NCBI GenBank assembly: GCA_020832445.1
Contig: JAFIEO010000040.1
Location: forward strand, 1 to 47,056
Direction of reading: 5' to 3'
DNA from: Paracoccaceae bacterium
Lineage (GTDB): Bacteria > Pseudomonadota > Alphaproteobacteria > Rhodobacterales > Rhodobacteraceae
DNA: 47,056 nucleotides
A program made the position numbers and the translations under genes. Below, one piece after another: positions 14,265-42,196 of this stretch. Under the pieces are notes generated by a model. The model worked only from the letters and a program-made list of their open reading frames with translations, was not told where the DNA came from and ran no database searches. How positions within the stretch are numbered: position 1 is the stretch's first letter; each line of letters begins with the position of its first letter.

Positions 14265-14453
14265 GCCCGCGCCATCGGCGGGTCGGGGTCTGCCAGTCCA
14301 GCATTTGAAAAGTTCACTTTATGCAGGCTGCATATTCCGACAACAAAGGAATTCCCTGACATCAGCCAAATCGGCAGGCCGCAGGACGGCCCGCCGATGG
14401 CGCGGCGGGCTTCGCCCTTTGCTCCGCGCCTTGGGAATCCCCCCCATCAGGCC
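14265..14453 (-). repeat. Dispersed intergenic repeat, copy A
   Basis: One of three copies in this window (others at 26597-26783 and 42009-42196). Plus-strand landmarks are GCCCGCGCC at 14265, a 15-bp palindrome TATGCAGGCTGCATA at 14320-14334, and a 67-base block at 14369-14435 identical to copy C. That block folds into two hairpins: ATCGGC..GCCGAT, and GGCGCGG..CCGCGCC ending at 14430. The copy fills most of the gap between two convergent genes and reaches the stop codon of the ABC ATPase gene. It is listed on the minus strand because it follows the minus-strand stop codon in all three cases. Confidence 0.9.
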
Positions 14454-15367
14454 GCCTTGCCGCTGGTCAGCGACAGGAACACATCTTCCAGATCGGGTTC
14501 TTCGCTGGTGACATCCGTGACCACACCGCCTGATTGCGCGACCGCCGCCAGCAACTGCCCTGCACTGACCTGCGACCGGCGATAGGTCAGCGCAATCTGC
14601 CCGTCGCGGCGCGTTTCCTGCGTTACATTGGCGGGCAAGGCCAACGCCGCCTGCGGGTTTTCCAGACGCAACACCAGTGTCTTGGCATCCAGCCGCCCCA
14701 GCAGCGCCGATGTGCGGTCACGCACCACCACCTCGCCATGGTTGATGATGGCAATTTCATCGCACATGGCTTCGGCTTCTTCCAGATAATGGGTTGTCAG
14801 AATGATGGTCATGCCCTGTTCATTCAGCTTGCGCACATTGGTCCACAGCATCTGGCGCAATTCGATATCAACACCCGCTGTCGGTTCATCCAGAACCAGA
14901 ACCTGCGGATGATGCACCAGCGCCTTGCCCAGCAACAACCGCCGCCGCATCCCCCCCGACAAGGTGCGTGCATAGGCTTCGGCCTTGTCGGACAGGCCGA
15001 TCAGTTCCAGTATCTCATCCGTGCGGCGCGCCGATTTGGGCACCCCATAAAGGCCCGCCTGCACCTCCAGCGCACCGCGCGGGGTAAAAAACGGGTCAAT
15101 ATTCAACTCCTGCGGCATGACGCCGATGGCCGCACGCGACTGGCGCGGGTTCACATCCTGATCAAACCCCCATATCCGCACCTGCCCCGCCGTTTTGTTC
15201 ACCAACCCCGCCAGAATATTGATCAGGGTCGATTTGCCCGCGCCATTGGGGCCAAGCAGGCCGAAAATACTGCCAGCAGGGATCGTCAGGTCCACCCCGT
15301 TTAATGCGGTCTTGCCGTCTGCATAAGTCTTGCTCAGGTTCGAGATTTCGATCGCGTTTTTGGTCAT
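14447..15367 (-). CDS. ABC transporter ATP-binding protein
   Basis: A 306-residue ATPase subunit with Walker A GPNGAGKST (39-47), signature LSGGM (136-140), Walker B VLVLDEP (156-162) and switch His193. DPFFTPRGALEVQAGLYGVP (91-110) and the C-terminal 90-residue extension resemble the YadG/CcmA-like multidrug export group. ATG 15367 is chosen because the frame upstream lacks family similarity. No permease gene is adjacent: the next DNA downstream is repeat copy A, and upstream lies a divergent DUF805 gene. It must use a permease encoded elsewhere or be orphaned. The substrate is unknown. Confidence 0.9.
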   Translation of the reverse strand: MTKNAIEISNLSKTYADGKTALNGVDLTIPAGSIFGLLGPNGAGKSTLINILAGLVNKTAGQVRIWGFDQDVNPRQSRAAIGVMPQELNIDPFFTPRGALEVQAGLYGVPKSARRTDEILELIGLSDKAEAYARTLSGGMRRRLLLGKALVHHPQVLVLDEPTAGVDIELRQMLWTNVRKLNEQGMTIILTTHYLEEAEAMCDEIAIINHGEVVVRDRTSALLGRLDAKTLVLRLENPQAALALPANVTQETRRDGQIALTYRRSQVSAGQLLAAVAQSGGVVTDVTSEEPDLEDVFLSLTSGKAA

Positions 15368-15503
15368 CGGGTCCGCCCATCCTCGCATTATGTTTGCGCT
15401 GAACATAAGCACATCGGCGGGAATTGAAAGTCGGTCCGGTTTCTTGACCCGCACGCGTGCCGGTCATAGGCTGGCCAAAGCACTCGGGATGAAAGGAAAA
15501 CCC

Positions 15504-15971
15504 ATGAAGGAACTGCTGACCTCATTTGACGGACGCATCGGGCGCGGGCAATGGTGGCTGGGTGCACTGGTGTTGATTGTCTTTGCCATTGTCTTTGCAA
15601 TTATTGTGGGCGTCCTGTTCGGCGACGGCGTGATCACCAGCATTCTGACATTGCTGCTGTCATTCGCGCTGCTTTATCCTGGGGCGGCACTGGCCACCAA
15701 GCGGCTGGCAGATCGCGGCAAACCGGCCATGCCACGGCTGGTTATTTTCTTTGGTCCCAGCCTTCTGTTCAACATTATCGATTCATTCCGCATCGGCTAT
15801 CGCCCCCTGCCGGAAATGGCCGGTGTCGCAACAAACGGCGCCATGATGCCCGGCACATTCGGCATGACACTTGGCTTCATCTCGCTTGTGGTCAGTCTCT
15901 GGGCGCTGGTAGAACTGGGCATCCTGAAGGGCGATGAAGGCGAAAACCGCTTCGGCCCGGCCCCCGCCTGA
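15504..15971 (+). CDS. DUF805 family membrane protein
   Basis: A 155-residue small membrane protein. It begins [20 protein letters not shown], the F-x-GRIGRxxWW pattern typical of DUF805, then has hydrophobic spans at about 19-42, 44-62, 75-90 and 120-140. The family function is unknown. The start at 15504 has GAAAGGA about 6 nt upstream; an ATG at 15489 would add five residues. The gene is divergent from the ABC ATPase gene. Confidence 0.85.
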
Positions 15972-16051
15972 CGCGAACACCCCCTGAAGGCCCCTTGCCT
16001 GTGCGGCCAGATCAAGTATGTTCCCGCACAGGTAGCAAGAAGGTCACCAAG

Positions 16052-16249
16052 ATGAAGTCCACCCTGTCCCATGATGCCCCCGAAACCGAAATCGTAAGCG
16101 CTATGCGCGTCTGCTGCGATGGCGGCGAAGGTGCGCTGGGGCACCCGCGCGTGTGGCTGTCGCTGCCCCTCGACACCGGACTTGTTGAATGCCCCTATTG
16201 CGACAAGCGCTTCATCCACCGCGATTTTGCGGATGATCAAACGTCCTGA
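16052..16249 (+). CDS. Zinc-finger (CHCC-type) domain protein
   Basis: A 65-residue protein with the CHCC zinc-finger layout: Cys in [19 protein letters not shown], the His in GHPRVWL, and C-P-Y-C-DKRF near the C-terminus. This is the bacterial counterpart of the NDUFS6/complex I 13-kDa subunit zinc domain, and in alphaproteobacteria such genes often stand alone. It starts at ATG 16052 and ends 34 bases before polA on the same strand. Confidence 0.85.
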
Positions 16250-16283
16250 GCATCTTGAACAGACCAGAAACGGAGGGCCAGCC

Positions 16284-19100
16284 ATGAGCGAATGCAAAAC
16301 GGGCTTTGGCAAGGGCTGCCATCTGCATCTGATCGACGGATCGGCCTATATTTTCCGCGCCTATCATGCGCTGCCACCACTGACACGCAAATCCGACGGG
16401 TTGCCCGTGGGCGCTGTGGCCGGCTTTTGCAACATGCTGTGGCGCTATCTGGGCGAGAATTGCGACAGCTCCGACGCACCCACCCATGCGGCGGTAATCT
16501 TTGATTATTCATCAAAGACATTTCGCAATGACATCTATGACCTATACAAGGCCAACCGTCCCGAACCGCCCGAAGATCTGCGCCCGCAATTCCCGCTGAC
16601 ACGCGATGCCACCCGCGCCTTCAACCTGTCCTGCATCGAGGTGCAGGATTTTGAAGCCGATGACATCATCGCCACGCTGGCGCGGCAGGCGCGCGAAGCT
16701 GGCGGGCGCGTGACCATCATTTCGTCCGACAAGGACCTGATGCAACTGGTGGGTGGCGGTGTCGAAATGCTGGATGCGATGAAAAACAAACGCATCGGCA
16801 CAGATGAAGTGATTGAAAAATTTGGCGTTGCCCCCGACCGCGTGGTGGATGTGCAGGCTTTGGCGGGGGATTCGGTGGACAATATTCCCGGCGCGCCGGG
16901 CATCGGGGTCAAGACTGCGGCGCTTTTGATCAATGAATATGGCGATCTGGACAGTTTGCTGGCGCGTGCAGGCGAAATAAAGCAACCCAAACGCCGCCAG
17001 ACCCTGATTGATCATGCAGACCAGATCCGCATGTCGCGCAAACTGGTCACGCTTGATGAAAACACCCCGCTGGATTTTTCGCTGAACGATCTGGAAGTGC
17101 GCGACCCTGACCCGACCGCGCTTGTGGACTTTCTGAACCAGATGGAATTTCGCACGCTGACACGCCGCGTGGCCGACAAGTTCGGGACCGAACCGCCCCC
17201 CCTGCCTGACCCTGCCCCCGAAACGACCCCGCAGGCCAGCACGCCCGATATGCCGGAATTCAGCGCATCACTTTATGACTGCATCCGCGACACGGACACG
17301 CTGAACACATGGATCGACCGCATCCGCGAACGCGGCTATGTGGCCGTGGACACCGAAACCACATCACTTGATGAAATGCGCGCCGAACTGGTGGGCATTT
17401 CACTGTGCGTGGATGCAGGCCATGCTGCCTATATCCCGCTGAAGCATCGTGCGGGCGGGGATGACCTGTTCGGGGCCAGCGCACTGCTGGACGGCCAGAT
17501 CCCGCTGGAGCACGCGCTGGAAGCCCTGAAATCCGTGCTGGAAGATCCTGCCATCCTGAAAATCGGGCAGAACATGAAATATGACGCCAAGATATTTGCA
17601 AATCTTGGTATAGACGTGGCTCCGATTGATGACACAATGCTGCTGTCTTATGCGCTGCATGGCGGGCTGCACGGGCATGGCATGGACACCCTGTCGGACC
17701 GCTACCTGAACCACCAGCCCATCGCGATCAAATCGCTTCTGGGCGCGGGCAAATCGGCCATCACTTTTGATATGGTGGGCATTGACGATGCCACCCGCTA
17801 CGCGGCTGAGGATGCCGATATCACACTGCGGCTGTGGCACATGTTCAAACCCCGCCTGCATGCCGCACAGGTCACGCGCGTCTATGAAACGCTTGATCGC
17901 CCGCTGGTGCCGGTTCTGGCACGGATGGAACGCCACGGCATCAAGGTGGACCGCGATGTGCTGTCGCGCATGTCCAACGCATTCGCGCAGAAAATGGCCG
18001 CGCTCGAATCGGAAATCCACGAACTTGCAGGCGAAAGCTTCAATGTCGGATCGCCCAAGCAACTGGGCGAAATCCTGTTTGACAAAATGTCGCTGCAAGG
18101 CGGCAAGAAGGGCAAGACGGGCGCCTATGCCACCGGGGCCGACGTGCTCGAAGACCTGGCCGCTGAAGGGCATGACCTGCCCGCCCGTGTGCTGGACTGG
18201 CGGCAATTGTCGAAACTGAAATCCACCTACACGGACGCGCTTCAGGACCATATCCACCCCGAAACCGGTCGCGTGCACACCTCCTATGTCATCACAGGGG
18301 CTGTGACAGGGCGTCTGGCCTCGACCGACCCCAACTTGCAGAATATCCCCATCCGGTCCGAAGAAGGGCGGCGCATCCGCACGGCCTTCGTGGCCGATCA
18401 GGGCAATAAACTGGTCGCACTCGATTACAGCCAGATCGAGCTGCGCATCCTCGCCCATATCGCCGGGATCGACAGCCTGAAATCCGCCTTCCGCGACGGC
18501 CATGACATCCATGCCATGACGGCATCAGAAATGTTCGGCGTGCCCCTGGACCAGATGACACCCGATGTGCGCCGTCAGGCCAAGGCCATCAATTTCGGCG
18601 TGATCTATGGCATTTCGGGTTTTGGTCTGGCGCGCAATCTGCGCATTCCGCGCGCGCAGGCACAGGCTTTCATCGACACCTATTTCCAGCGTTTCCCAGG
18701 CATCCGCGCCTATATGGATGACACTGTGGAATTCGCCAAGAAACACGGGCGCGTGGAAACCCTGTTCGGGCGGCGCATCCAGACCCCGGAAATCAACACC
18801 AAAGGACCGGGCGCGGGCTTTGCCAAACGCGCGGCCATCAACGCGCCCATTCAGGGGACTGCCGCCGATATCATCCGCCGCGCCATGATCCACCTGCCCG
18901 ACGCACTGGCGGACCTGCCAGCCCGCATGCTGCTGCAAGTGCATGACGAACTGGTGTTCGAGGTGCCCGAAAACGCCGTTGATGACACCATCGCCCGCGT
19001 CCGCGCGGTCATGGAAGCGGCCGCCGAACCCGTGGTCAAACTCGATGTGCCGCTGGTCGTGGATGCCGGTGTGGGCGACAACTGGGCGCAGGCACATTGA
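16284..19100 (+). CDS. polA: DNA polymerase I
   Basis: A 938-residue DNA polymerase with all three activities predicted. Residues 10-300 are the 5' nuclease domain (LIDGSAYIFRAYHALPP, DFEADDIIATLA, SSDKDLMQLV, GDSVDNIPGAPGIG). Residues 320-525 are the 3'-5' exonuclease, whose VAVDTETTSLDEM retains the metal-binding D-x-E, so proofreading is likely active. The polymerase domain holds motif A DYSQIELRILAHI (about 714), motif B RRQAKAINFGVIYG (about 762) and motif C QVHDELVFE (about 885). A CGGAGGG ribosome binding site precedes ATG 16284. It functions in Okazaki-fragment maturation and excision repair. Confidence 0.97.
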   Translation: MSECKTGFGKGCHLHLIDGSAYIFRAYHALPPLTRKSDGLPVGAVAGFCNMLWRYLGENCDSSDAPTHAAVIFDYSSKTFRNDIYDLYKANRPEPPEDLRPQFPLTRDATRAFNLSCIEVQDFEADDIIATLARQAREAGGRVTIISSDKDLMQLVGGGVEMLDAMKNKRIGTDEVIEKFGVAPDRVVDVQALAGDSVDNIPGAPGIGVKTAALLINEYGDLDSLLARAGEIKQPKRRQTLIDHADQIRMSRKLVTLDENTPLDFSLNDLEVRDPDPTALVDFLNQMEFRTLTRRVADKFGTEPPPLPDPAPETTPQASTPDMPEFSASLYDCIRDTDTLNTWIDRIRERGYVAVDTETTSLDEMRAELVGISLCVDAGHAAYIPLKHRAGGDDLFGASALLDGQIPLEHALEALKSVLEDPAILKIGQNMKYDAKIFANLGIDVAPIDDTMLLSYALHGGLHGHGMDTLSDRYLNHQPIAIKSLLGAGKSAITFDMVGIDDATRYAAEDADITLRLWHMFKPRLHAAQVTRVYETLDRPLVPVLARMERHGIKVDRDVLSRMSNAFAQKMAALESEIHELAGESFNVGSPKQLGEILFDKMSLQGGKKGKTGAYATGADVLEDLAAEGHDLPARVLDWRQLSKLKSTYTDALQDHIHPETGRVHTSYVITGAVTGRLASTDPNLQNIPIRSEEGRRIRTAFVADQGNKLVALDYSQIELRILAHIAGIDSLKSAFRDGHDIHAMTASEMFGVPLDQMTPDVRRQAKAINFGVIYGISGFGLARNLRIPRAQAQAFIDTYFQRFPGIRAYMDDTVEFAKKHGRVETLFGRRIQTPEINTKGPGAGFAKRAAINAPIQGTAADIIRRAMIHLPDALADLPARMLLQVHDELVFEVPENAVDDTIARVRAVMEAAAEPVVKLDVPLVVDAGVGDNWAQAH

Positions 19101-19145
19101 CCCCCGCCCCTGCTTTCATTCTGTCAAAAATATCCACAGGGGTTT

Positions 19146-19174
19146 CTTAAGGGGGGGCCGTGCCCCACCTTAAG
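19146..19174. repeat. Inverted repeat downstream of polA and glmM
   Basis: CTTAAGG at 19146-19152 pairs with CCTTAAG at 19168-19174, and G/C runs between them extend the stem, leaving a small loop around GCCGTG. It lies in the 124-base gap between the convergent polA and glmM genes. It is followed by a second G-rich/C-rich pair (GGGGGGCAGCAGCCCTCC). There is no clear T tract, so it is a weak terminator candidate or an intergenic repeat. Confidence 0.5.
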
Positions 19175-19224
19175 GCAGGGGGTTTGGGGGGCAGCAGCCC
19201 TCCAAGCGCCCCCTCGGAAATACA

Positions 19225-21584: not shown

Positions 21585-21634
21585 ACCATCTATTTGCCCG
21601 TTTCAGCGTGACAGCACAAGATGTCGCAAAAGTG

Positions 21635-23903: not shown

Positions 23904-26447
23904 TCAGGTCAGATCTTCTTCGATCACAAGCTGCGCGGCGGCAAGGCGTGCAACCGGCACCCTGAACGGCGAACAGGACACATAATCAAACCCAAGATCG
24001 CGGCAGAAACGAATCGATTCCGGGTTCCCGCCATGTTCGCCACAGATTGACAGTGTCAGATCATCGCGCGCCGCGCGTCCCCGTTCCGCGCCAAGGCGCA
24101 GCAATTCACCCACACCATCCAGATCCAGTGTGTGAAACGGATCTTCGGGAAACACACCTTGCTGCACATAATCCGACATGAAGCGCCCTGCATCATCGCG
24201 CGACAAACCATAGGTCATCTGGGTCAGGTCATTGGTACCGAAAGACAGGAAGCTGGCATGCAGCGCGATATCACCTGCACGCAACGCCGCGCGCGGGGTT
24301 TCGACCATGACCCCAAGCTTATAGTCAAACGTGCCCCCCGAACGCGACCGGACAGCGGCGGCGGCGGCATCAATGCGGGTTTTCACCAACTCGACCTCGC
24401 GCATGGCCGACACCAGCGGGATCATGATTTCGGGCACGATATGCGCGTTGCGGCGGCTGATCTCTATCGTGGCCTCGAATATGGCGCGGACCTGCATTTC
24501 ATAGATTTCAGGAATCGTCACACCCAGACGCACGCCGCGCATGCCCAACATGGGGTTGAATTCCGACAGCGCCTCGGCACGGCGGGTGATTTCAGACAGC
24601 GGCTTGCCAAGGGCATCGGCCAGAAACCGCAGCCCTTCCTTGGAATGCGGCAGGAATTCATGCAAGGGCGGGTCAAACAGCCGGATGCAGACAGGCTGAC
24701 CTTGCATGATTTCAAACAGTTCAATGAAATCCGCGCGTTGCATGGGCAACAGCCGCTCCAGCGCGTCCGAGCGGTCCTCTGCCGTGTCCGCAAAAATCAT
24801 CTCGCGCATCAATGTCAGGCGGTCATCTTCAAAGAACATATGTTCTGTGCGGCACAGCCCGATCCCCTGCGCCAGAAACTCCCGCGCGATCCGCGCATCC
24901 GCAGGCGTGTCGGCATTGGCACGAATACCAATGTCGCGCCGCGCATCCGCCCAGGACAGCAATGTCTGAAACCTGTCATCCAGCGCGGGTTCCAAAAGCG
25001 GCACCTCGCCCAGAAAAATCTGCCCGCTGGTTCCGTCCACGGTCAGGACATCGCCTTCGGACAGGGTGCGCCCGCCCGCAGTCAGCGTTTTGCGCCGCGC
25101 ATCGATCTGGATACGCGACACCCCCACCACACAGGGCACCCCCAGCCCGCGACCGATGACAGCGGCGTGGCTGGTCATGCCGCCGCGTTCGGTCAAAACG
25201 GCGCTGGCCGCATGCATTCCGCGAATATCCTCTGGCGTAGTTTCGCGCCGCACCAGAATGCAGGCCTCGTCACGCGCGGCACTGGCCTGCGCGGCACCCG
25301 AGCTGAACACCACGCGCCCGATGGCCGCGCCGGGGCTGGCGGCAATGCCGCGCGCGAACACTTCGGGGCGGCTGCGCGGGTCCACCTGACGGTGCAGCAA
25401 TTCGCTAAGCGCCTTGGGCGGAATGCGCATCAAGGCCTCGTCGCGCGGGATGATATCGTCATTGGCCAGATCGACCACCACCCGCACAGCCGCACGCGAC
25501 GAGCGTGGCACGTTGATCGCATCCAGCACCCACAGCTTGCCATCATCAAGGGTGAACTCGATCTCCATTTCCTCGCGCAGGCGCTTGCGGGCATTGGCCC
25601 CATGCTCCAGCAGTTGCGCATAGGCATCGGGGCAGTATTCCTGCAACGACGGCCCGCGCGCGTCGCGCGTCAGATACAGCACATTCGCCCCGTTTTTCAG
25701 CGCGTCCGCCCCGTGCTGCCCGTCGGATTTGAACCGCCCCATCACCTGCGGCACGCCAGTATCGGCATCGATAAACCGGATCAGACCGGCGCCGCTAAGC
25801 CCCCGACCAACGCCGCCCGCCATCGCCTGCACCACCAGCCCCAGCCCCGCATCACCCGATGCGCCCTTGGCCTGCCGCAACAGCCGCGCCGATGTCCCTT
25901 CCCATGCCCGCGCCATGGAGCGCAGCACATCCGCCAGCTGTTGCGCGGGCGACTGGGGGAAGGGTTCTTCCACCTCGGATTCGTATTCGCGCAGCGCCGC
26001 ATGCAGCGCAGACAGCGACGGTTCTGCCGCGTCAAACATATCGGGGTCCAGATGGGCCACATGCGCGGCATAGGATTGCACGAACCGCAGGTAGATCGCG
26101 GTTGCCACAGCCTCGCCATGGGTTTCGCTGATCCGGGCATGTGTTTCGTCATTCATGCCGATATTCAGAATTGCCGCTGGCCCCCCCCATTCGGGATGCT
26201 CCGCCGAGGGGCGCACTGACAAAAGCTGCCCCTTGGGGAAATGCCCCAGCAGATGGCGCAGGTTCATCTGCGCGCCGGTTGCAATTTCGCGCACCACCGC
26301 GAAGGACAACGCCACAGTCTGCGGCACCGGCATGTCCAACCGCACCAGCCGTTGCAGGCATTTTGCGCGCCAACCATGGGTCTGGCGCTTGATGGGCGCC
26401 GATCCGGTGATCTGCGCATAATCGGTCAGGGTCAGGTATTTGGGCAT
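23904..26447 (-). CDS. PPDK-like PEP-binding protein with degenerate ATP-grasp half
   Basis: An 847-residue relative of pyruvate phosphate dikinase, often annotated ppdK. The central and C-terminal parts look intact: the phosphohistidine domain with GGMTSHAAVIG (His427), the PEP/pyruvate barrel with GIGLCRTEHMFF (529-540), NPMLGMRGVR (631-640) and the CGEHGGNPESIRFC motif (Cys802), then SCSPFRVPVARLAAAQ. The N-terminal ATP-grasp half is shorter and altered. No GxKG-type lysine loop is visible at the start, and where PPDKs have LQTRN this protein has LDAIN (308-312). Arg79 in SVRP and EIEF (295-298) remain. It may not use ATP and phosphate like normal PPDK. ATG 26447 has AGAAGG upstream. Confidence 0.85.
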   Translation of the reverse strand: MPKYLTLTDYAQITGSAPIKRQTHGWRAKCLQRLVRLDMPVPQTVALSFAVVREIATGAQMNLRHLLGHFPKGQLLSVRPSAEHPEWGGPAAILNIGMNDETHARISETHGEAVATAIYLRFVQSYAAHVAHLDPDMFDAAEPSLSALHAALREYESEVEEPFPQSPAQQLADVLRSMARAWEGTSARLLRQAKGASGDAGLGLVVQAMAGGVGRGLSGAGLIRFIDADTGVPQVMGRFKSDGQHGADALKNGANVLYLTRDARGPSLQEYCPDAYAQLLEHGANARKRLREEMEIEFTLDDGKLWVLDAINVPRSSRAAVRVVVDLANDDIIPRDEALMRIPPKALSELLHRQVDPRSRPEVFARGIAASPGAAIGRVVFSSGAAQASAARDEACILVRRETTPEDIRGMHAASAVLTERGGMTSHAAVIGRGLGVPCVVGVSRIQIDARRKTLTAGGRTLSEGDVLTVDGTSGQIFLGEVPLLEPALDDRFQTLLSWADARRDIGIRANADTPADARIAREFLAQGIGLCRTEHMFFEDDRLTLMREMIFADTAEDRSDALERLLPMQRADFIELFEIMQGQPVCIRLFDPPLHEFLPHSKEGLRFLADALGKPLSEITRRAEALSEFNPMLGMRGVRLGVTIPEIYEMQVRAIFEATIEISRRNAHIVPEIMIPLVSAMREVELVKTRIDAAAAAVRSRSGGTFDYKLGVMVETPRAALRAGDIALHASFLSFGTNDLTQMTYGLSRDDAGRFMSDYVQQGVFPEDPFHTLDLDGVGELLRLGAERGRAARDDLTLSICGEHGGNPESIRFCRDLGFDYVSCSPFRVPVARLAAAQLVIEEDLT

Positions 26448-26596
26448 TTCACACCTTCTGGCTGCGGCGCAGCATAGGCCAATGCCACGCAGACTCAAGG
26501 TTTTGTTATCGCCTGTGCGTTTTGGCCCGCCCGTGCCGGATGGCAATGCCGCGCCGTGCGGTTCTGGCCTTTTGCAATCATTCGCGCGGGGACTAA

Positions 26597-26783
26597 GCCC
26601 GCGCTATCGGTGGGCCGGGGTCTGCCGATCCGACGCTAGTGAAGTTCACTTTATGCCGGCTGCATACCCTTACTTCAAAAACTTGGCGTGTCGCTGGCCA
26701 AATCGGCAGGCCGCGGGACGGCCCGCCGGTGGCGCGGCGGGCTGCGCCCTTGATTCCGCGCCTTGGGGTGTCCCCTTCTGGCC
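26597..26783 (-). repeat. Dispersed intergenic repeat, copy B
   Basis: The second copy lies in the 358-base gap between glyS and the PPDK-like gene. Its right end is 22 bases beyond the glyS stop codon. The palindrome at 26652-26666 has one mismatch relative to copies A and C. The 67-base block at 26701-26767 differs from copy A at six positions, yet both hairpins still pair. A further inverted pair, GCGCGGG/CCCGCGC (26584-26604), flanks its left end. Apart from this repeat I see nothing in the gap. Confidence 0.9.
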
Positions 26784-26805
26784 AAAACCACCAGCCTTTT
26801 GCGCG

Positions 26806-29106
26806 CTACCCCTCAACCCGCGTCAGGTCGGCCACTTGCAGGCAGGTGGCGCGGATGCGGTGCAGCAGGTTCAGGCGGTTGCGGCGCAATATCTGGTTGT
26901 CGGCATTGATCTGGACCGCCTCAAAAAACGCATCAATCGGCGCGCGCAGAGCGGCCATGGCCTGCATGGCAGTTTCAAAGTCCTCGGCTTCCATCGCGGG
27001 CGCAATCACAGCGTCAGCCGCGTCCAGCGCGTTGAACAGCGCGTGTTCTGTGTCATCTTCGAAGAATTTGGGATCAGGGCCAAAGCTGTATTCGACCCCG
27101 TCTTGCGCTTCTGCATCGTCCAGAACACTGATCGCCTTCAGGAACGAAGGATCGTCGTTGAAGCCGGCTTTTTTCATTTCATCCACCCATAGCTTGTTTG
27201 CGCGCTTGAACCCTTGAATAAGGTTGCTTCCGTCATCTGTTCGCAGAACAGAGTTAAGCGCTTCCGCGCGTTTGACCAGCAGCGTCAGATAATCATTATT
27301 CGGCATCGCAAGGCAGGCATCGATCACGTCATGGCGAATGCCCTGCTCGCGCAGATGGACCTTAAGGCGGTCGTGGAAGAAGGCGAGGAGATCGTCAGCT
27401 TTGTCTAATTGTTTCTGCACCAGGTCTGTATCACTCGCGCTTTCTGCATTGAGTTCTAGACCACCAAAGATTTGGGGTTCAAAAGCTTCTGCCAGCGCCC
27501 TTTCTCCGATTTTTTCAAGTTCAAACACGATTTTCCGAGCAACATCACCCGTTTCAAGCCCGCGAGAGAACCCGAAAGCACGAACTACCATAATCATTAT
27601 CGGCGTCCGTATCCCAAACCGCACCCCACTCCCCAACACCAACCGAATAACCCCCAGCGCCGCGCGGCGCAGCGCGTAAGGGTCTTTCGACCCTGTGGGT
27701 TTTTCGTCAATCGCCCAGAACCCCGCCAGCGTGTCCAGCTTGTCGGCCAACGCCACGGAGACCGATACCGGCGATGACGGCACGGAATCCGATGGCCCAA
27801 GCGGTTGGTAATGCTCCACACAGGCGCGCGCCACGTCTTCGGGCAACCCTGCCGCCCGCGCGTAATAGCTGCCCATAAGCCCCTGAAGTTCGGGGAATTC
27901 CCCCACCATTTCCGACCGCAGGTCGGATTTCGCAACCCGTGCGGCCGTTGCCGCCAGTTCCACATCAGCGCCCACCAGCGGCGCAATCTCGCGCGCCAGC
28001 GCTTCAATCCGCGCCACACGGTCGGCTTGCGTGCCAAGCTTGTTGTGGAAGGTCACCGCCGACAGCCCGGCCCCCATCCCTTCAAGTCCCGCATCAGCAA
28101 TGGCGCGCAAGTCATTGTCCCAAAAGAATTTTGCATCCGACAGCCGCGCCGCCAACACCTTTTGATTGCCCGCAAGGATTGTCGCGCCACCGTCCACGGT
28201 TTCACGGTTGGCCACAGTCACAAAGCCGGTGATCTGCCCCGATTTGGGGTCGCGCACCGAAAAGAACTTCTGGTGTTCCTTCATCGATGTTTGCAGCACT
28301 TCCGGCGGCAGGCCAAGGAATTGCGCGTCAATGCGCCCCATCAGCACCACCGGCCATTCGACCAGCCCTGCAACTTCTGCCAGCAAGCCCTTGTCTTCGA
28401 CCAGTTCCAGCCCCGCCGCGAAAGCCATCTGGCTGGCATCATTCCAGATATGGTCGGCGCGTTCCTGTGGGTCCAGAATGACGCGGGCGCGCTTCAACTT
28501 CGCGGCGTAATCCTCGAAACTCACAACAGAAAATTCATCCGGCGCCATGAACCGGTGACCGCGCGTGCGGTCGCCCGCCACAATCCCGTCCACGTCCAGC
28601 GCCACCACCTCGGCCCCGTCTTCGCGCGACAGGATACACAGGATGGAATGCAAAGGCCGCACCCAGCGCAAGCTGCCCGACCCCCAGCGCATGGATTTCG
28701 GCCACGGGAAATTGCGGATCGCGTGGTCCAGCACTTCGGCCACAATGGCGCTTGCCGCGCGCCCTTCGGTGACGACATGGGCAATATAGACCTGGCCCTT
28801 CTTGTCGTCGCGGATTTCCAGATCTTCCATGCGCAAACCGGTGGAGCGGCAGAACCCCTCAATCGCCTTGTCGGGCGCGCCAACTTTCGGCCCGCGGCGT
28901 TCTTCGCGCGTGGTAGGGCTGTGGTCAGTCACGCCCTGCACAGCCAGCGCCAGCCTGCGCGGCGTGGCGAAAGCCTGTGCGTGCGCATAGGTCAGGCCGC
29001 GTTCCACCAGCCCGTCTGTCACCATCCGCTTCAGCGCGTCGCAGGCACCCGCCTGCATACGCGCCGGAATTTCCTCGGAGAACAGCTCGATCAGAAGGTC
29101 AGCCAT
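26806..29106 (-). CDS. glyS: Glycine--tRNA ligase beta subunit
   Basis: Large subunit of the bacterial alpha2beta2 glycyl-tRNA synthetase, which charges tRNA-Gly. It starts MADLLIELFSEEIPARMQ, the standard beta-subunit opening, and continues with RRLALAVQGV, a kinase-like fold region, the HD-like middle and a C-terminal anticodon-binding helical domain. At 766 residues it is longer than the roughly 690-residue E. coli subunit. The start at 29106 is fixed by homology; frame extension to 29163 is not meaningful. A segment encoding residues about 502-682 (27061-27600) is clearly less G+C-rich than the flanks. The alpha subunit gene is upstream, separated by a DUF6446 gene. Confidence 0.96.
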   Translation of the reverse strand: MADLLIELFSEEIPARMQAGACDALKRMVTDGLVERGLTYAHAQAFATPRRLALAVQGVTDHSPTTREERRGPKVGAPDKAIEGFCRSTGLRMEDLEIRDDKKGQVYIAHVVTEGRAASAIVAEVLDHAIRNFPWPKSMRWGSGSLRWVRPLHSILCILSREDGAEVVALDVDGIVAGDRTRGHRFMAPDEFSVVSFEDYAAKLKRARVILDPQERADHIWNDASQMAFAAGLELVEDKGLLAEVAGLVEWPVVLMGRIDAQFLGLPPEVLQTSMKEHQKFFSVRDPKSGQITGFVTVANRETVDGGATILAGNQKVLAARLSDAKFFWDNDLRAIADAGLEGMGAGLSAVTFHNKLGTQADRVARIEALAREIAPLVGADVELAATAARVAKSDLRSEMVGEFPELQGLMGSYYARAAGLPEDVARACVEHYQPLGPSDSVPSSPVSVSVALADKLDTLAGFWAIDEKPTGSKDPYALRRAALGVIRLVLGSGVRFGIRTPIMIMVVRAFGFSRGLETGDVARKIVFELEKIGERALAEAFEPQIFGGLELNAESASDTDLVQKQLDKADDLLAFFHDRLKVHLREQGIRHDVIDACLAMPNNDYLTLLVKRAEALNSVLRTDDGSNLIQGFKRANKLWVDEMKKAGFNDDPSFLKAISVLDDAEAQDGVEYSFGPDPKFFEDDTEHALFNALDAADAVIAPAMEAEDFETAMQAMAALRAPIDAFFEAVQINADNQILRRNRLNLLHRIRATCLQVADLTRVEG

Positions 29107-35131: not shown

Positions 35132-35137
35132 CAGCCG

Positions 35138-36232: not shown

Positions 36233-36326
36233 CGTGGCGTCCCTTCCTGTCTGTCGCTTTCTATACATAAGCGTCAGTTTCCTGATTTCCACGAGTATAC
36301 GGGCCAGATATGGGATCGGATCGAAA

Positions 36327-37508
36327 TCAAATCGCGTCAAGCGCCTTGCGCAAATCCGCAATCAGATCTGCGGTTGCTTCCAGCCCGACGGACAAACGCA
36401 CCAGACCGGTCGAAATGCCAAGTTCGATTTTCTGATCCTCGGGCAGACGCTGATGCGTTGTAGTGGCGGGATGGGTGGCGATGGACCGCGCATCGCCCAG
36501 ATTATTGGAAATCAGCACGATTTGCAGCGCATTCAGAAAACGAAATGCCGCGTCCTTGCCCGCCGCGATATCCAGCGCCAGCACTGTTCCGAAACCGCCC
36601 ATCTGCGCCTTTGCAACCGCATGGTGGGGGTGGCTGGACAAACCCGGAAAAATTACGCGTGCCAGTCTTGGATCATCTTGCAGGGCTTCCGCGATGGCCT
36701 GCGCGCTGGCGGCCTGCGCACGCACGCGCAAATCCATCGTTGTCAGGCCATTAACCATGACCCATGCATTGAACGGGCTTAACGCGCCGCCTGTGTGTTT
36801 CATATAAGGTTCGACCGTGCCGCGAATAAATTCGCGCGTGCCACAGATCACACCGCCCAGCGCACGCCCCTGCCCGTCAATATGCTTGGTTGCGGAATAA
36901 ATCACCACATCCGCGCCCAGTTCCACCGCACGGCTGAAGATTGGCGTGGCAAACACATTGTCCACCACCACCGTAGCCCCCACGGCATGGGCGATTTCGG
37001 CAATCGCGCGCAGATCCACAACTTCCAGCGTGGGGTTGGACACGGTTTCACAAAAAACCGCGCGCGTGTCGGGGCGGATGGCCGCGCGCCATTGGTCCAG
37101 ATCGGTGCCATCAACGAAATCGACCTGCACGCCGTAGCGCGACAGCACTTCTTCCAGAATATACAGGCAAGACCCGAACAGCGCACGCGATGACACGACA
37201 TGATCGCCTGCGCGCAACATTGATGTCAGTGCCCCCGACACCGCAGCCATTCCCGATGCAGTGGCAAATGCGTCTTCGGTGCCTTCGATCGCGGCAATCC
37301 GGTCTTCGAACACTGCCACAGTCGGGTTACCATAGCGGGCATAGATGAATTCATCGGCTTCGGTTTTCAAAAACCGTGCCTCGGCCGCTTCGGCCGACGG
37401 GTAGACGAACCCCTGGGTCAGAAAAATCGCCTCGGCGACTTCGCCATATTGGCTGCGCCGCGCGCCTGTGTGCACCAGTTTCGTGCGCTTATCCCAATCT
37501 TGTGCCAT
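36327..37508 (-). CDS. metZ: O-succinylhomoserine sulfhydrylase
   Basis: PLP enzyme of the Cys/Met metabolism family that makes homocysteine from O-succinylhomoserine and sulfide. The 393-residue protein binds PLP through Lys208 in SATKHIDGQGR and contains RYGNPTVAVFEDRIAAIEG, TASGMAAV and VVVDNVFATPIF. Initiation is at ATG 37508, downstream of a SAM-II riboswitch and terminator (37524-37625), so SAM is expected to shut expression down. The gene is followed 94 bases later by folE2 and preceded by metF on the same strand. Confidence 0.95.
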   Translation of the reverse strand: MAQDWDKRTKLVHTGARRSQYGEVAEAIFLTQGFVYPSAEAAEARFLKTEADEFIYARYGNPTVAVFEDRIAAIEGTEDAFATASGMAAVSGALTSMLRAGDHVVSSRALFGSCLYILEEVLSRYGVQVDFVDGTDLDQWRAAIRPDTRAVFCETVSNPTLEVVDLRAIAEIAHAVGATVVVDNVFATPIFSRAVELGADVVIYSATKHIDGQGRALGGVICGTREFIRGTVEPYMKHTGGALSPFNAWVMVNGLTTMDLRVRAQAASAQAIAEALQDDPRLARVIFPGLSSHPHHAVAKAQMGGFGTVLALDIAAGKDAAFRFLNALQIVLISNNLGDARSIATHPATTTHQRLPEDQKIELGISTGLVRLSVGLEATADLIADLRKALDAI

Positions 37509-37523
37509 GTCCGTCCCCGACGC

Positions 37524-37557
37524 AAAGAAAAACCCCCGGACTGTCACAGGCCGGGGG
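37524..37557 (-). terminator. Intrinsic terminator in the metZ leader
   Basis: In the minus-strand transcript CCCCCGG (37557-37551) pairs with CCGGGGG (37539-37533) around an 11-base loop that can itself pair (CTG/CAG), followed by TTTTTCTTT. It sits 19 bases downstream of the riboswitch core and 16 bases before the metZ start, the expected place for an attenuator. Confidence 0.85.
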
Positions 37558-37575
37558 CATAAAACGCCCTGACCT

Positions 37576-37625
37576 CTTTAGCGGTTTTTTTAGCGTGGCC
37601 CGCAATCCGGTAACAAAGCGCCACG
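37576..37625 (-). promoter_or_regulatory. SAM-II riboswitch
   Basis: Read in the direction of metZ, the sequence starts CGTGGCGCTTTG, continues TTGCGGGCCACG and ends CGCTAAAG. The stem GTGG/CCAC, the TTTG loop, the CCACG-n-TAAA join and the terminal CGCTAAAG match the SAM-II aptamer known upstream of met genes in alphaproteobacteria; it aligns base by base over about 50 nt with the metA-type example I recall. It binds S-adenosylmethionine with a pseudoknot. The aptamer begins about where transcription should begin. Confidence 0.88.
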
Positions 37626-37633
37626 TCGCTCTG

Positions 37634-37661
37634 CATTAAGGCTTTCGTCAGGGCAGGTCAA
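37634..37661 (-). promoter_or_regulatory. Candidate metZ promoter
   Basis: On the minus strand, TTGACC (37661-37656) and TTAATG (37639-37634) are separated by 16 bases. Transcription would start near 37627, at the 5' edge of the SAM-II aptamer. It lies 16 bases beyond the metF stop codon, so metZ can be read from its own promoter. Confidence 0.5.
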
Positions 37662-37677
37662 TCAGGCTTTGCGCGTA

Positions 37678-38544
37678 TCAGGCCACGTTTTCCAGCGACA
37701 CCTGCGGCTGCACGCCCAGCGCATGGCACACATCGCGCGTCAGATAGGCACGGTTCAGGGTATAGAAATGCAAATCTTCCACCCCTTCGGCAATCAGGCG
37801 GTCACACATTTCGGTGCAAATTGCAGTGGCCAGCAAGTCCTCGCGCCCGTCGCGCGCCGCCTTTTCAAACGCTTCATCCATCCATGCAGGGATATGCGTG
37901 TTGCATGCGCTGGCAAATTTGCGAATGCCGGCCCAGTTTTCAATCGGCACAATGCCCGGAATGATCTTGCCTGTGATCCCCTGACGCACGCAGTCATCAC
38001 GGAAGCGCAGGAATGTTTCGGGTTCAAAGAAGAACTGCGTGATGGCCGAATCCGCGCCCGCCTGAAACTTGCGTTTCAGCCACATGACATCGGCGCGGGC
38101 ATCGGGGGCGTCAGGATGGGGTTCGGGATAGGCACCCACACGGATCTTGAACTTGCCGGTGTTGGCCAACGCCTCGATCAACTCTACTGAAGACCCGAAA
38201 CCGTCGGCATGGGGGGTGAAGCGCGCGGCCCCTTTGGGGGCATCGCCGCGCAGCGCCACAATCTCGCGCACACCCGCATCGGCATAGGCGTTCACAATCT
38301 CCAGCGTTTCTGCGCGCGTGGCGTCCACACAGGTCAGATGCGCGGCCACGTTCAGGCCGTATTGCGCCGCGATGGTGGTGACCGCCTCATGCGTCAGCTT
38401 CCGCGTTGTGCCCCCTGCCCCGTAAGTGACCGACACGAATTCAGGGGCCATCGGGGACAGCATACGCACAGTGTCCCACAGCCGGAAGCTGGCATCCAGC
38501 GTCTTTGGCGGGAAGAATTCAAACGATATGCGCGGCGTGGTCAT
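37678..38544 (-). CDS. metF: Methylenetetrahydrofolate reductase
   Basis: Reduces 5,10-methylene-THF to 5-methyl-THF, the methyl donor for methionine synthase. The 288-residue flavoprotein has ISFEFFPPKT, FVSVTYGAGGTTR, HLTCVDATR and ALRGDAP early, then KRKFQAGADSAITQFFFEPE and PGIVPIENW. ATG 38544 fits the family; upstream residues would not. It is divergent from metR with a perfect MetR box between them, and lies upstream of the riboswitch-controlled metZ. Confidence 0.95.
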   Translation of the reverse strand: MTTPRISFEFFPPKTLDASFRLWDTVRMLSPMAPEFVSVTYGAGGTTRKLTHEAVTTIAAQYGLNVAAHLTCVDATRAETLEIVNAYADAGVREIVALRGDAPKGAARFTPHADGFGSSVELIEALANTGKFKIRVGAYPEPHPDAPDARADVMWLKRKFQAGADSAITQFFFEPETFLRFRDDCVRQGITGKIIPGIVPIENWAGIRKFASACNTHIPAWMDEAFEKAARDGREDLLATAICTEMCDRLIAEGVEDLHFYTLNRAYLTRDVCHALGVQPQVSLENVA

Positions 38545-38592
38545 TATTGGTGCTCCGGTTTTTGTTGCCCCCTTGTGCCATGTCTGCGAATG

Positions 38593-38605
38593 TGAAACCA
38601 ATTCA
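38593..38605. promoter_or_regulatory. MetR-type operator between metF and metR
   Basis: TGAAACCAATTCA fits the MetR consensus TGAAnnnnnTTCA with no mismatch. It lies 48 bases before the metF start and 34 bases before the metR start. Downstream, TTCAT and ATGAA form another inverted pair around 38602-38627. One site can serve both the activated target and autoregulation. Confidence 0.65.
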
Positions 38606-38639
38606 TTATTCTCATCACCATTATGAACGGGATTGAAGG

Positions 38640-39545
38640 ATGCATATCGAATTCCGGCATCTTCGCACCATCAAGGCCATCCATGACGCAGGCGGGCTGG
38701 CGCGCGCCGCTGATCTGCTGAACATGACCCAGTCAGCACTGTCGCATCAGGTCAAGGGGTTGGAAGATCAGGCAGGGGTGGAGTTGTTCGTGCGCCGGTC
38801 CAAGCCGCTGAAACTGTCGGCGGCGGGGCTGAAAATGCTAAGTGCCGCCGAAGACATCCTGCCGCGTGTCGCCGCACTGGAGGAAGAATTCACCGGTCTG
38901 GTCAAGGGGCGGCTGGGGCGGCTGCATATCGCAATCGAATGCCATGCCTGTTTCGACTGGCTGTTTCCCGTGCTGGAGCAGTTCCGCAAGGCATGGGCAG
39001 ATGTGGATGTCGATATTCGCCCCGGTCTGGCCTTTGATGCGCTGCCTGCGCTGAGGCGCGAGGAAGTGGACCTTGTCATCTCATCCGACCCCGAAGATTT
39101 GCCGGGCATCACCTTTTTGCCGCTGTTCGACTATGAACCCGTCTTTGTGGCATCGGCCACCCACCGGCTGGCCACGCAGGACTATGTGACCGCGCCCGAT
39201 TTTCGCGACGAAACGCTGATCACCTATCCGGTGGACCGCAACCGGCTGGACGTGTTCACGCAACTGCTGACCCCCGCCAAGGTCGAACCCCGCGCCATCC
39301 GGCAGGTGGAACTGACCGCCGTTATCCTGCTGCTGGTGGCATCGGGGCGGGGTGTGTCGGTGCTGCCCGACTGGGTGCTGCGCGATGTGCGCTATCATTC
39401 GGACTATGTGACCAAACCCATCACCAAGGGCGGCCTGACCCGCCGCCTCTATGCCGCCGTGCGGGCCGAGGACGCGGCAAAACCCTTCATGGCGCATGTT
39501 TTGCGGCTGGCACGGACGGAGCCGGTGAAATTGCAGAGGGGGTGA
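38640..39545 (+). CDS. metR: LysR-family regulator, MetR-like
   Basis: A 301-residue LysR-type regulator. The winged helix (1-65) reads LRTIKAIHDAGGLARAADLLNMTQSALSHQVKGLEDQAGVELFVRR. The effector domain (about 90-295) includes IAIECHACFDWLFPVLEQFR, as in MetR, which senses homocysteine. Divergent orientation from metF and a consensus MetR box between them support the assignment. The expected role is activation of metF and probably metE or metH elsewhere. GAAGG lies directly before the ATG. Confidence 0.88.
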   Translation: MHIEFRHLRTIKAIHDAGGLARAADLLNMTQSALSHQVKGLEDQAGVELFVRRSKPLKLSAAGLKMLSAAEDILPRVAALEEEFTGLVKGRLGRLHIAIECHACFDWLFPVLEQFRKAWADVDVDIRPGLAFDALPALRREEVDLVISSDPEDLPGITFLPLFDYEPVFVASATHRLATQDYVTAPDFRDETLITYPVDRNRLDVFTQLLTPAKVEPRAIRQVELTAVILLLVASGRGVSVLPDWVLRDVRYHSDYVTKPITKGGLTRRLYAAVRAEDAAKPFMAHVLRLARTEPVKLQRG

Positions 39546-39555
39546 GGGAATCGCG

Positions 39556-40989
39556 TTACCGCATCCTAAAACGAGTTCGCAACCCAAGCCCAAAGAAAAA
39601 CGCCAACGGCAAAGATAAAATGCTCTGCAATGCAGAAAAAATCTTCTTGACGACATGAAGATCTTCAAAGAAATTCAAACCTAAATACGCACGCCCAAAG
39701 CCAAAAAAAGGGAAAACATTATTGAAACTCAAAGCTAAAGATGTTCTCAATGGATTATCTAAACCCTCCACAAAAAAACCGCCCCAGAAAAAAATTAATC
39801 CAATGACAAACACTGACAGCAGCCCCAACAAGGGACGCGAGATGGAGTGGCCAAAATTCGAAAATACTCCATAAACTATGTATAGCAATCTTTCAGAAAA
39901 GCTTCCCATCCTAGAAGCTAATTTCATTTCACTTCGAAAGAAAAAATGAGCGTCCTCTATATTCCCCTGACGCTCTGAGAGATTGCGCAACAATGAGCAA
40001 GTTTCTTTTGCATCTTTAAGATGCTTGACAACGCCTTTAGGCCACAAATTATCTTCAGCTGAAAATATTGATTTATCATGAAGCAACGAGCCTCGAAAAA
40101 TTGGAAAACAATCATTAAACCTCGCAGATCGAAAATTAGCAGGCATCTCAAAAATAACATCTGAAAAATCTGGTCTTCTTGATCGCTCTCCGCCTTCAAA
40201 AGAAGCATCTATCATGGTCAACCTACCAAGAAAGTTACTTTGCCAAAATGACACACCTTCTTTAAAAATTGCACCGTAAAACCAAGCCTCATCTTGCATT
40301 TTCACATTTGTAAAATTCACTCCGCGCTGAAACACTACGCGTTGAAAATTTACTCTTTTCTCAAAGATCGCGCCATTAAAAGACACAGAGCCATTAAAAC
40401 TTGTCGCATTCCAAAAAGCTTCTGACCTGCACTGAACTCCATTTAAATATGCACCCTTAACGAATTTCGCATCAGAAAAATCAATCATATCATTAAATAT
40501 CACGTTGTTAAACGCCGCCGATTGCGAAAAAATAGCCCAGCCAGATTCAATTTTATTTTGAAATACACAACCGTTGAATTTAATATCACAAGGGATATAA
40601 AACCCATCAATACAAAACATTTTTGCAAATTCGGTAGAAGAAAAATCTATCAAGGCATTAGGGTTTGGCGCAGGCGTTTCATCTTTAATATGATAATAGC
40701 TATCCTGAGACAATCTAATATACTTCCCCTTAGAGATTTTTTTCATCCTTTCAAAGAAGATACTTTCAAAATCACTCCAGTCAGCCACTTCGCCTTTAAA
40801 TACTCTGTAATTTTGAATTAAGTATTCTTTTTCACTTTGGGAAGATTGGTGTAGCGCCCAAGCATTCCAAGCCTTTCGATTTCTATCGTGTAGCTCTGGA
40901 TCGATGCTGGAACCATCTTGTTCGCCAAATAGCGTAGCAAGGATATACCAAGGATTCTCATAGAGGTTTCTATTTGTGAACTTGACCAT
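39556..40989 (-). CDS. Pentapeptide-repeat membrane protein (AT-rich gene)
   Basis: A 477-residue protein in three parts. Residues 1-110 have no recognised domain. Residues about 120-310 are pentapeptide repeats with F/L in the central position (FSSTEF, FNGCVF, FNNVIF, FSDAKF, FNGAIF, FQRVVF), which form a right-handed beta-helix. The C-terminus has two hydrophobic spans (about 385-412 and 447-470) bracketing a short hydrophobic loop (LALSFNNVFPFFGFG) that could be a pore-like re-entrant segment. Lines I counted are 25-40% G+C, far below neighbours, pointing to horizontal transfer. ATG 40989 is used; a GTG at 41055 is possible. No ion-channel signature such as TVGYG is present, so function is unknown. 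Confidence 0.75.
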   Translation of the reverse strand: MVKFTNRNLYENPWYILATLFGEQDGSSIDPELHDRNRKAWNAWALHQSSQSEKEYLIQNYRVFKGEVADWSDFESIFFERMKKISKGKYIRLSQDSYYHIKDETPAPNPNALIDFSSTEFAKMFCIDGFYIPCDIKFNGCVFQNKIESGWAIFSQSAAFNNVIFNDMIDFSDAKFVKGAYLNGVQCRSEAFWNATSFNGSVSFNGAIFEKRVNFQRVVFQRGVNFTNVKMQDEAWFYGAIFKEGVSFWQSNFLGRLTMIDASFEGGERSRRPDFSDVIFEMPANFRSARFNDCFPIFRGSLLHDKSIFSAEDNLWPKGVVKHLKDAKETCSLLRNLSERQGNIEDAHFFFRSEMKLASRMGSFSERLLYIVYGVFSNFGHSISRPLLGLLSVFVIGLIFFWGGFFVEGLDNPLRTSLALSFNNVFPFFGFGRAYLGLNFFEDLHVVKKIFSALQSILSLPLAFFFGLGLRTRFRMR

Positions 40990-41129
40990 ACCATCGCCAT
41001 ATCTATCTGAGTTAGGATGTGCATTAGAATCCTCCTTAGGATACTGCCGCCCCACCCCGCTCGCAAGGGCTTCACATCTGCCCGCTGCGCGCGTATAGCG
41101 CCCTCTGACCCAAGCTAGGAGCCGTTCGG

Positions 41130-41924
41130 ATGCAAGGCAGTGCCAACCTTAACCTGATGATCAAAGCCGCGCGCAAGGCGGGCCGCGCCTTGGTCAAGGA
41201 TTTCCGCGAAGTGGAAAACCTTCAGGTGTCGTCCAAGGCCGCAGGTGATTTCGTGACCCGTGCGAATGTCGCCGCCGAACGCATTATCCGCGAAGACCTG
41301 ATGGAAGCGCGCCCCAATTACGGCTGGCTGGCCGAGGAAACAGACCCGCTTGAGGGCAAGGACCCGACACGCCGCTGGATCGTGGACCCGCTGGACGGGA
41401 CCGCGAATTTCCTGCATGGCCTGCCGCATTGGTCCGTGTCGATCGCGCTGGAATTCAAGGGGGAAATCATTGCAGCCGTGGTGTTCGACCCCGCCAAGGA
41501 CGAATTGTTCGTCGCTGAAAAAGGGTCTGGCACCTTCATGAATGACAAGCGCCTGCGCGTGTCAAACCGCAACAGTATGCTGGATTGCATATTTGCAACC
41601 GGCATCCCCCAGGCGGGAAAACGCACGCTGCCCGCCACCTTGCATGATCTGGCGCAAATGATGCCTGCATGCGCGGGTGTGCGGCAATGGGGGTCGACGG
41701 CGCTGGATATGGCCTATGTGGCGGCAGGGCGTTTTGACGGATATTGGGAACGCGAATTGCAGCCGTGGGAATATAGCGCAGGGCTGCTGCTGGTGCGCGA
41801 AGCAGGCGGGTTCACCGCCCCCATTCGCGACGGCGCCGATATTGCCGAACGTGGCGAGTTGATCGCGGCAAATTCGGGCGTCTTTGACGGCCTGACCCGC
41901 GTGCTGCGCAAACGCCCCGAATAA
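41130..41924 (+). CDS. suhB: Inositol monophosphatase family protein
   Basis: A 264-residue metal-dependent phosphatase of the IMPase/SuhB family. Metal and substrate motifs are WLAEETD (about 69-75), IVDPLDGTANFLHGLPHW (about 84-101) and STALDMAYVAAGRFDGYWE (about 190-208). It hydrolyses inositol-1-phosphate or similar phosphates; SuhB also acts in rRNA transcription antitermination in E. coli. The gene follows the AT-rich pentapeptide gene divergently, and its 3' side faces repeat copy C. Confidence 0.9.
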   Translation: MQGSANLNLMIKAARKAGRALVKDFREVENLQVSSKAAGDFVTRANVAAERIIREDLMEARPNYGWLAEETDPLEGKDPTRRWIVDPLDGTANFLHGLPHWSVSIALEFKGEIIAAVVFDPAKDELFVAEKGSGTFMNDKRLRVSNRNSMLDCIFATGIPQAGKRTLPATLHDLAQMMPACAGVRQWGSTALDMAYVAAGRFDGYWERELQPWEYSAGLLLVREAGGFTAPIRDGADIAERGELIAANSGVFDGLTRVLRKRPE

Positions 41925-42008
41925 CCCCGCTGCGGCACTATCCCGCCCCGATGAAATCGCAGGGCGGGTTCATGCGGGCCTGAAGGGGCCGTTGCAACCA
42001 TGGACAAA

Positions 42009-42196
42009 GCCCGCGCCATCAGTGGGCCGGGGTCTGCCGATCCTACGTTACAGGGGCGCAGTTTATGCAGGCTGCATATTCTAAAGATCACAGGATTGGC
42101 CTGCCATCAGCCCAATCGGCAGGCCGCAGGACGGCCCGCCGATGGCGCGGCGGGCTTCGCCCTTTGCTCCGCGCCTTGGGCGTCCCCCTTCTGGCC
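42009..42196 (-). repeat. Dispersed intergenic repeat, copy C
   Basis: The third copy lies in the 314-base gap between convergent suhB and rpiR genes, 42 bases from the rpiR stop. The palindrome TATGCAGGCTGCATA is at 42064-42078. The block 42114-42180 is identical to copy A over 67 bases. From the start of each copy to its palindrome is 55 bases in all three. The rest of the gap holds nothing I can name. Confidence 0.9.

Follow-up and report, generated by a model that had tools for sequence, protein, structure and literature searches.

A structured non-coding repeat family of Rhodobacterales at the 3′ ends of genes, with stable sites and exchanged content

Contig JAFIEO010000040.1 of the Paracoccaceae bacterium assembly GCA_020832445.1 carries three similar intergenic repeats, copies A, B and C, each beside the end of a gene. 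The entire contig (C88; 47,056 nucleotides) is referred to here as the window; the genome comprises 4.08 Mb in 99 contigs. A preliminary description of the window, made from its letters alone, took the repeats for a structured RNA or a short mobile element and not for random relics. What are these repeats, and what keeps them beside gene ends? They proved to belong to a large family that is apparently undescribed, clade-specific (Rhodobacterales) and non-coding. Its members lie 3′ of genes, in this genus mainly in convergent gaps and hardly ever in divergent ones. The explanation that we favour, at about an even chance, is that they form a REP/ERIC-like structured family that would serve as RNA structures of 3′ ends and be renewed by orientation-blind exchange. 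The preliminary interpretation thus stood in outline, with more copies, covariation and a positional bias, and failed in its part about a common orientation.

Copy number, unit and range of the element

A covariance-model search of the source genome located 114 distinct places scoring at least 75 bits (146 matches among 150 scored candidates, most of the weaker ones being the opposite strand of the same palindrome). With three mismatches allowed at most, a 26-base pattern was matched 50 + 64 times (114 matches counted, about 100 listed individually) versus 0 + 0 times for the reversed control. The likeness of the three copies is therefore not due to chance, and further copies, whose lack had been named beforehand as the mark of chance relics, are abundant. 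A DNA search of the genome gave at least 40 matches (the best 40 of 174 candidates scored), and nhmmer applied to 97 merged stretches delimited 107 distinct copies, of which 99 were almost full-length.

The unit consists of a core of about 172 nt. A simple word search, confined to the source genome, detected inverted ends of GGCC type at the two sides of 46 of 98 copies, and the median span of these 46 copies was 227 bp. Terminal inverted repeats, a mark of miniature inverted-repeat transposable elements (MITEs), are thus present in many copies of this genome. Copies A, B and C were confirmed at the positions first given for them, all on the + strand. Copy A (14265-14453; 156.8 bits with the covariance model) comprises the core at 14265-14437 and the right terminal repeat, the left one being unrecognisable. 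Copy B (26565-26784; 159 bits) has its core at 26597-26769 between the terminal inverted repeats TGGCCTTTTGC and CTTCTGGCCA, and copy C (41976-42197; 157.6 bits) has its core at 42009-42180 between GGGCCTGAAGGGG and CCCCCTTCTGGCCA. The unit of about 188 bp described earlier is real but extends further to the left, to about 26565 in copy B and about 41976 in copy C, with inverted GGCC-type ends. On recounting, the distance from the left end to the palindrome was again 55 bases in each copy, that from the palindrome to the right block 34, 34 and 35 bases, and the longest common stretch of A and C 67 bases. The fixed spacing amid variable sequence holds across the family, apart from some one-base length changes.

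In 12 genomes picked for having matches, the covariance model gave 147, 135, 132, 84, 84, 49, 42, 34, 32, 24, 22 and 15 matches (opposite-strand rows included, 150 candidates scored in each). BLAST with one copy matched 21 of 37 genomes of the genus and 53 of 394 of the family, the source genome included and with few candidates scored per genome. Across the order, the covariance model matched 152 of 292 sampled genomes and 70 of 112 genera (nine candidates scored per genome, strict filters). Across the class, it matched only 3 of 289 genomes, all three labelled as the same family, and 19 of the 20 listed non-matching genomes belong to other families. By BLAST, 5 of 72,556 plasmid records and no phage sequences were matched. 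Three places on plasmid NZ_CP121115 of Roseinatronobacter sp. S2 (156132, 79461 and 419396) hold variants of 75-88 nt with both ends of the model and without the middle. In the source genome, copies lie within about 250 bases of the ends of 11 contigs (C3, C4, C5, C25, C50, C74, C89, C91, C92, C95 and C96), so that the element probably breaks the assembly.

Two full copies stand head to tail, 62 bases apart, between convergent genes in genome G124 (locus L277, 4991-5162 and 5225-5396). In five or six copies, the additional common words CAAGGCTGG and TCAACCTGA were found outside the terminal repeats, at about -48 and +35 from the core; they are perhaps a second repeat in which the elements are nested. 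The idea that a further inverted repeat generally lies outside the GGCC ends was rejected, as the signal was not above shuffles in 46 copies and few copies share words. A protein-coding role appears unlikely: reading frames stay open in individual copies, yet others show single-base length changes and stops in the alignment. No Rfam family reached its gathering score in searches with the window, with copy C at E-values up to 10 and with five related loci; the four matches obtained for copy C were all far below the gathering scores. Among the titles listed in a search of the open-access literature, none named such an element in this clade.

Fold and covariation

The 37 sequences of alignment A2, drawn from many genera, share a core fold consisting of a long interrupted stem (20 pairs), a large loop with a central TTTAT and a GC-rich 3′ hairpin (11 pairs). 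In copy C, the left arm of the long stem lies at 42009-42042, the central conserved TTTAT motif at 42057-42078, the right arm at 42115-42149 and the 3′ hairpin at 42144-42175, all on the + strand. Paired bases occupy 94.6% of the 1138 alignment cells, versus 33-42% in slid controls. Paired changes bore out the structural part of the preliminary description: across genera, both partners are changed in 16 of the 31 base pairs, as in columns 30/116 with CG in 19 sequences, GC in 13 and UA in 5. The covariation score was 0.261 versus 0.088 in shuffles, and none of 500 shuffles reached any of five measures. Unaided, RNAalifold recovered the long stem, with compensatory changes in 14 of 25 pairs. 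Compensatory changes beyond chance, as expected of a functional structured RNA, are thus present, template switching being an alternative cause.

The loop is conserved as well, with TTAT invariant and TTTAT in 36 of the 37 sequences; nine further copies have TTTAT in eight cases and TTCAT in one. In this genus the central motif is part of a palindrome, TATGC-N5-GCATA (42064-42078 in copy C), while the centre is non-palindromic in most A2 sequences from other genera. G·T exceeds A·C in the long stem by 27:4 across genera (A2) and by 126:12 in 93 copies of the source genome, counts taken over related and therefore not independent rows. This large excess suggests that the element's own (+) strand is the folded one.

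The middle segment around ATNGCGCGG has two alternative pairing partners, the left end of the core and the 3′ hairpin; the 5′ half of this hairpin can itself pair with the left end instead. Runs of at least six pairs with the left end occur in 35 of 37 sequences, with the 3′ hairpin in 33 and with both in 32; shuffled partners gave means of 24.6 and 25.6 and maxima of 30 and 29.

Placement relative to genes

In the source genome, genes were called with a simple codon-model caller on stretches fetched for their elements. Of the 107 copies, 73 lay in convergent, 18 in tandem and 1 in a divergent gap, with 15 undecided at contig or stretch ends; among element-free gaps, 42 of 582 were convergent. 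The tandem placements split 9 versus 9 between the two orientations, by which the common orientation proposed for the three copies fails as a rule and oriented insertion is rejected. Since these stretches had been fetched for elements, 400 kb of a relative, G033, were taken without regard to them. There, an element was present in 5 of the 21 convergent gaps of at least 150 bases, in 3 of the 45 tandem and in none of the 27 divergent ones (p = 0.013). The off-centre parts of earlier G033 stretches gave 5 of 10, 3 of 55 and 1 of 29, respectively, and both samples pooled gave 10/31 convergent versus 7/156 other gaps (p = 3e-5). On plasmid NZ_CP121115, according to its PGAP annotation, three of five distinct places are convergent, two tandem and none divergent; three of the five are the short 75-88-nt variants, and two (179883 and 332868) are identical in coordinates and scores to places on contig C3 of G033. 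G033 is therefore very probably Roseinatronobacter sp. S2, and the window would come from Roseinatronobacter or a sister lineage. The positional bias foreseen for a real family was thus observed, the copies sitting 3′ of genes and mostly in convergent gaps. Convergent or unidirectional and rarely divergent siting is also a mark of REP and REPIN sequences.

Some sites recur in several genera. Loci around glyS from 80 genomes (931 kb; the 80 best of 593 candidates, a sample chosen for the site of copy B) held five strong matches, four of them directly after glyS in the orientation of copy B (L159, L160, L207 and L228). The gap between pheS and pheT, identified by Pfam on L261 only, holds a copy in seven genomes of genus g44 (L260-L266) and in one of another genus (L267), and could be an ancestral site; 9 of the 13 matching g44 genomes listed carry one match. 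A general link to aminoacyl-tRNA synthetases was rejected: of 20 further neighbour proteins, 17 belonged to other families, 3 to no family and none was a synthetase.

In the window, the gene-end setting described earlier is of two kinds, convergent for copies A and C and tandem for copy B. Copy A lies between a CNNM/CBS/CorC-type gene (12058-14193, +), whose stop faces it from the left, and an ABC transporter ATPase gene (14447-15367, -), which ends at the copy. Copy B is 3′ of glyS (26806-29106, -), and on its left it is faced by the start of a PEP-utilising enzyme gene (23904-26447, -). Copy C is flanked on the left by the stop of an inositol monophosphatase-family gene (41130-41924, +) and on the right by the end of an RpiR-type regulator gene (HTH_6, SIS; 42239-43108, -). 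The stop distances first reported were reproduced for copy B (22 bases from glyS) and copy C (42 bases from the regulator gene); in copy A, said to follow its neighbour by 0 bases, the terminal GGCC (14450-14453) and the end of the ATPase gene (14447) overlap. The window also contains a SAM_alpha riboswitch (RF00521, 60.1 bits) at 37557-37634 (-) and a tRNA at 7770-7843 (+).

Orthologous sites and exchange of content

Twenty orthologous pairs were compared with G033 in stretches picked for the elements of this relative. Mean identity was 96.1% in the flanks and 91.8% in the elements, and 7 of the 20 pairs were inverted. In 13 of 20 pairs a paralogue from the same genome was more similar than the orthologue, namely in 7 of 7 inverted versus 6 of 13 others (p = 0.044). 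Since about 100 paralogues make some closer match likely by chance, it is the difference between the inverted pairs and the rest that is informative. All seven own sites that had both flanks in the unselected 400 kb were occupied in G033 (three more with one flank only were left uncounted); three were inverted, and one copy was truncated in both genomes. Over both samples, 10 of 27 compared copies were inverted. Two more orthologous sites are occupied by altered copies, one truncated and one inverted with its core deleted. The latter, at C72, is the one site at which G033 lacks the core; remains of both ends are kept there in inverted order, which looks like an internal deletion similar to that of the short plasmid variants. 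No clean empty site was found in the comparison with G033. Recent movement was not seen, 7 of 7 comparable sites being common with this approximately 96% identical relative, and the content was flipped or exchanged in place.

Of four inverted pairs whose alignments were displayed, three have flanks that agree as far as the left terminal GGCC repeat and diverge within it; on the right side the break is clear in two pairs and unclear in two. Linkage among 98 copies is low, with r2 of 0.019 at 16-30 nt and values near the permutation level (0.010) beyond about 15 nt, and all four combinations occur in 90-100% of site pairs. Kept occupancy together with inverted and mosaic content indicates that the sites are stable while their content is exchanged.

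Comparison with known repeat and RNA families

As described in excerpts of PMC3733652, REPs are high-copy intergenic palindromes of 20-40 bp, found downstream of coding regions, mostly in convergent or unidirectional gaps, and with frequent G·T pairs. The elements resemble REP/BIME and the GTAG- and CGTC-tagged REPIN sequences in intergenic 3′ siting, convergent preference and G·T pairs in stems. They differ from them in the 172-nt multi-helix core with its conserved loop motif, in spanning a whole bacterial order and in inverting at fixed sites. A search for the Y1 transposase RAYT (Y1_Tnp, PF01797) in eight element-bearing genomes gave nothing over the cut-off and one sub-threshold match of 30 positions in G033, while 5 of 14 control genomes were positive; no mobilising enzyme was found. 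With no RAYT over the cut-off and a unit of the wrong size, membership in REPIN was rejected.

ERIC, YPAL, Correia (NEMIS) and other bacterial MITEs are non-coding repeats of 100-250 bp with inverted ends that can fold in RNA when co-transcribed, and ERIC, YPAL and Correia have different groups as hosts. By description, the family is like them in being a non-coding repeat with inverted ends, and is set apart by paired changes across many genera and by the lack of target duplication. For the latter, lengths of 2-9 at four end offsets were examined in 46 copies, and none exceeded all of 200 shuffles, although old copies may have lost their duplications. Classical MITE insertion was rejected on this result and on the lack of a clean empty site. 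Mosaic palindromic intergenic repeats also occur elsewhere in Alphaproteobacteria, the Rhizobium mosaic elements (RIME) among them; as a possible difference, the class-wide search with the present model gave matches in 3 of 289 genomes alone, all of the same family. Like HRC-8-4 and uORFC-8-2 of Brewer et al. 2021 (PMC8632094), the element is a structured motif confined to Rhodobacterales. It differs from them in its sites: according to that study, HRC-8-4, which ends in a U run, is found mainly between ccoNOQP and ccoGHIS, and uORFC-8-2 precedes cysS. Overlap with further motifs in the supplements of that paper is possible.

Discussion

Under the favoured explanation, the neighbouring genes would be read into the element, which would then form part of their 3′ ends. 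The folded strand could bound, stabilise or insulate two facing transcripts as an RNA structure in a REP/ERIC-like manner. A near-palindromic structure at a 3′ end might work either way round, and inversion would then be tolerated. Since each end is an inverted copy of the other, a further copy could be used as a donor in either orientation, and gene conversion of this kind would give the flips and the mosaics.

Several observations weigh against this explanation. In the 3′ hairpin G·T is not in excess (5 versus 7 for A·C), and template switching can yield paired changes, so that covariation is no proof of an RNA function. No U-tract follows the hairpins in the aligned A2 copies, and U-tract terminators are, if anything, rarer at gene ends that face an element (23 of 194) than at convergent ends without one (9 of 40 with gaps of at least 60 bases, p = 0.08; 10 of 56 with gaps of at least 20 bases, p = 0.26); a role as intrinsic terminator is therefore not supported and was rejected. 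The element is not essential, since 140 of the 292 sampled genomes of the order gave no match with nine candidates scored in each. Outside the source genome the preference for convergence is weaker: 57 distinct places in other genomes comprise 23 convergent, 30 tandem, 2 divergent and 2 undecided ones, eight of them being one orthologous site; the 57 derive from 58 rows, of which L152 is the same place as L278.

A serious rival, which we regard as possible if on balance unlikely, is a purely selfish non-autonomous mobile element (MITE- or REPIN-like) with no host function, confined to harmless sites past gene ends, whose fold would be the single-stranded substrate of an unknown enzyme. Such a substrate fits the structure and the folded-strand bias equally well, promoters are avoided, copies occur on plasmids, and related genera vary from no detected match, or one, to more than 100 in a genome. 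Against it stand the missing target duplications in the 46 testable copies, the lack of a Y1 transposase over the cut-off where controls were positive, the absence of a recent insertion at the seven unselected comparable sites and the glyS and pheS-pheT sites common to several genera. If instead a protein such as gyrase, a nucleoid protein or a recombination protein bound the palindrome as DNA, where positive supercoils collect in convergent gaps, the convergent placement, the palindromic centre in this genus and the tolerance of inversion by a site used symmetrically would follow, and REPs of E. coli are gyrase targets according to PMC3733652. The strand asymmetry of the mismatches and the non-palindromic centre in most other-genus sequences make this improbable.

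The palindromes might also be a mutational by-product, kept or re-made by template switching and gene conversion with no selection on the fold. According to PMC8794818 and PMC8604942, template switching between palindrome arms can create paired changes and inversions, homogenising arms and inverting spacers, which resembles the flips and paired changes seen here. By our reasoning, perfect pairs would then be expected and not G·T over A·C (27:4 and 126:12); 36 of 37 aligned sequences and 8 of 9 other copies retain the unpaired central TTTAT, and simple inversion does not bring all seven flipped copies nearer to their own paralogue than to the orthologue. We consider this distinctly improbable. 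A family of trans-acting small RNA genes, expressed from the + strand of each element, would account for the conserved unpaired centre and the stable fold and could be new, as no Rfam family fits. It appears highly improbable, as siting relative to neighbours is the conserved feature and more than 100 copies are unusual for a small RNA.

The favoured explanation, a 3′-end RNA structure renewed by exchange, can be taken a step further, in a version that we put forward tentatively and think rather unlikely. The element would be a resident of gene ends, with sites inherited like genes, a pool of content re-copied in either direction and selection keeping the fold of one strand. Because of the two alternative partners open to its middle segment, the element may act as a two-state 3′-end switch, serving two facing genes at once.

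If the favoured explanation is true, a sizeable share of the longer convergent junctions in these bacteria carries one and the same element (among gaps of at least 150 bases in the two G033 samples, 5 of 21 and 5 of 10), and the family would be a natural setting for testing what the 3′ ends of convergent genes require. It would also be a clear case of repeats that are fixed in place yet exchanged and flipped, that probably break assemblies and that can mislead covariation tests.

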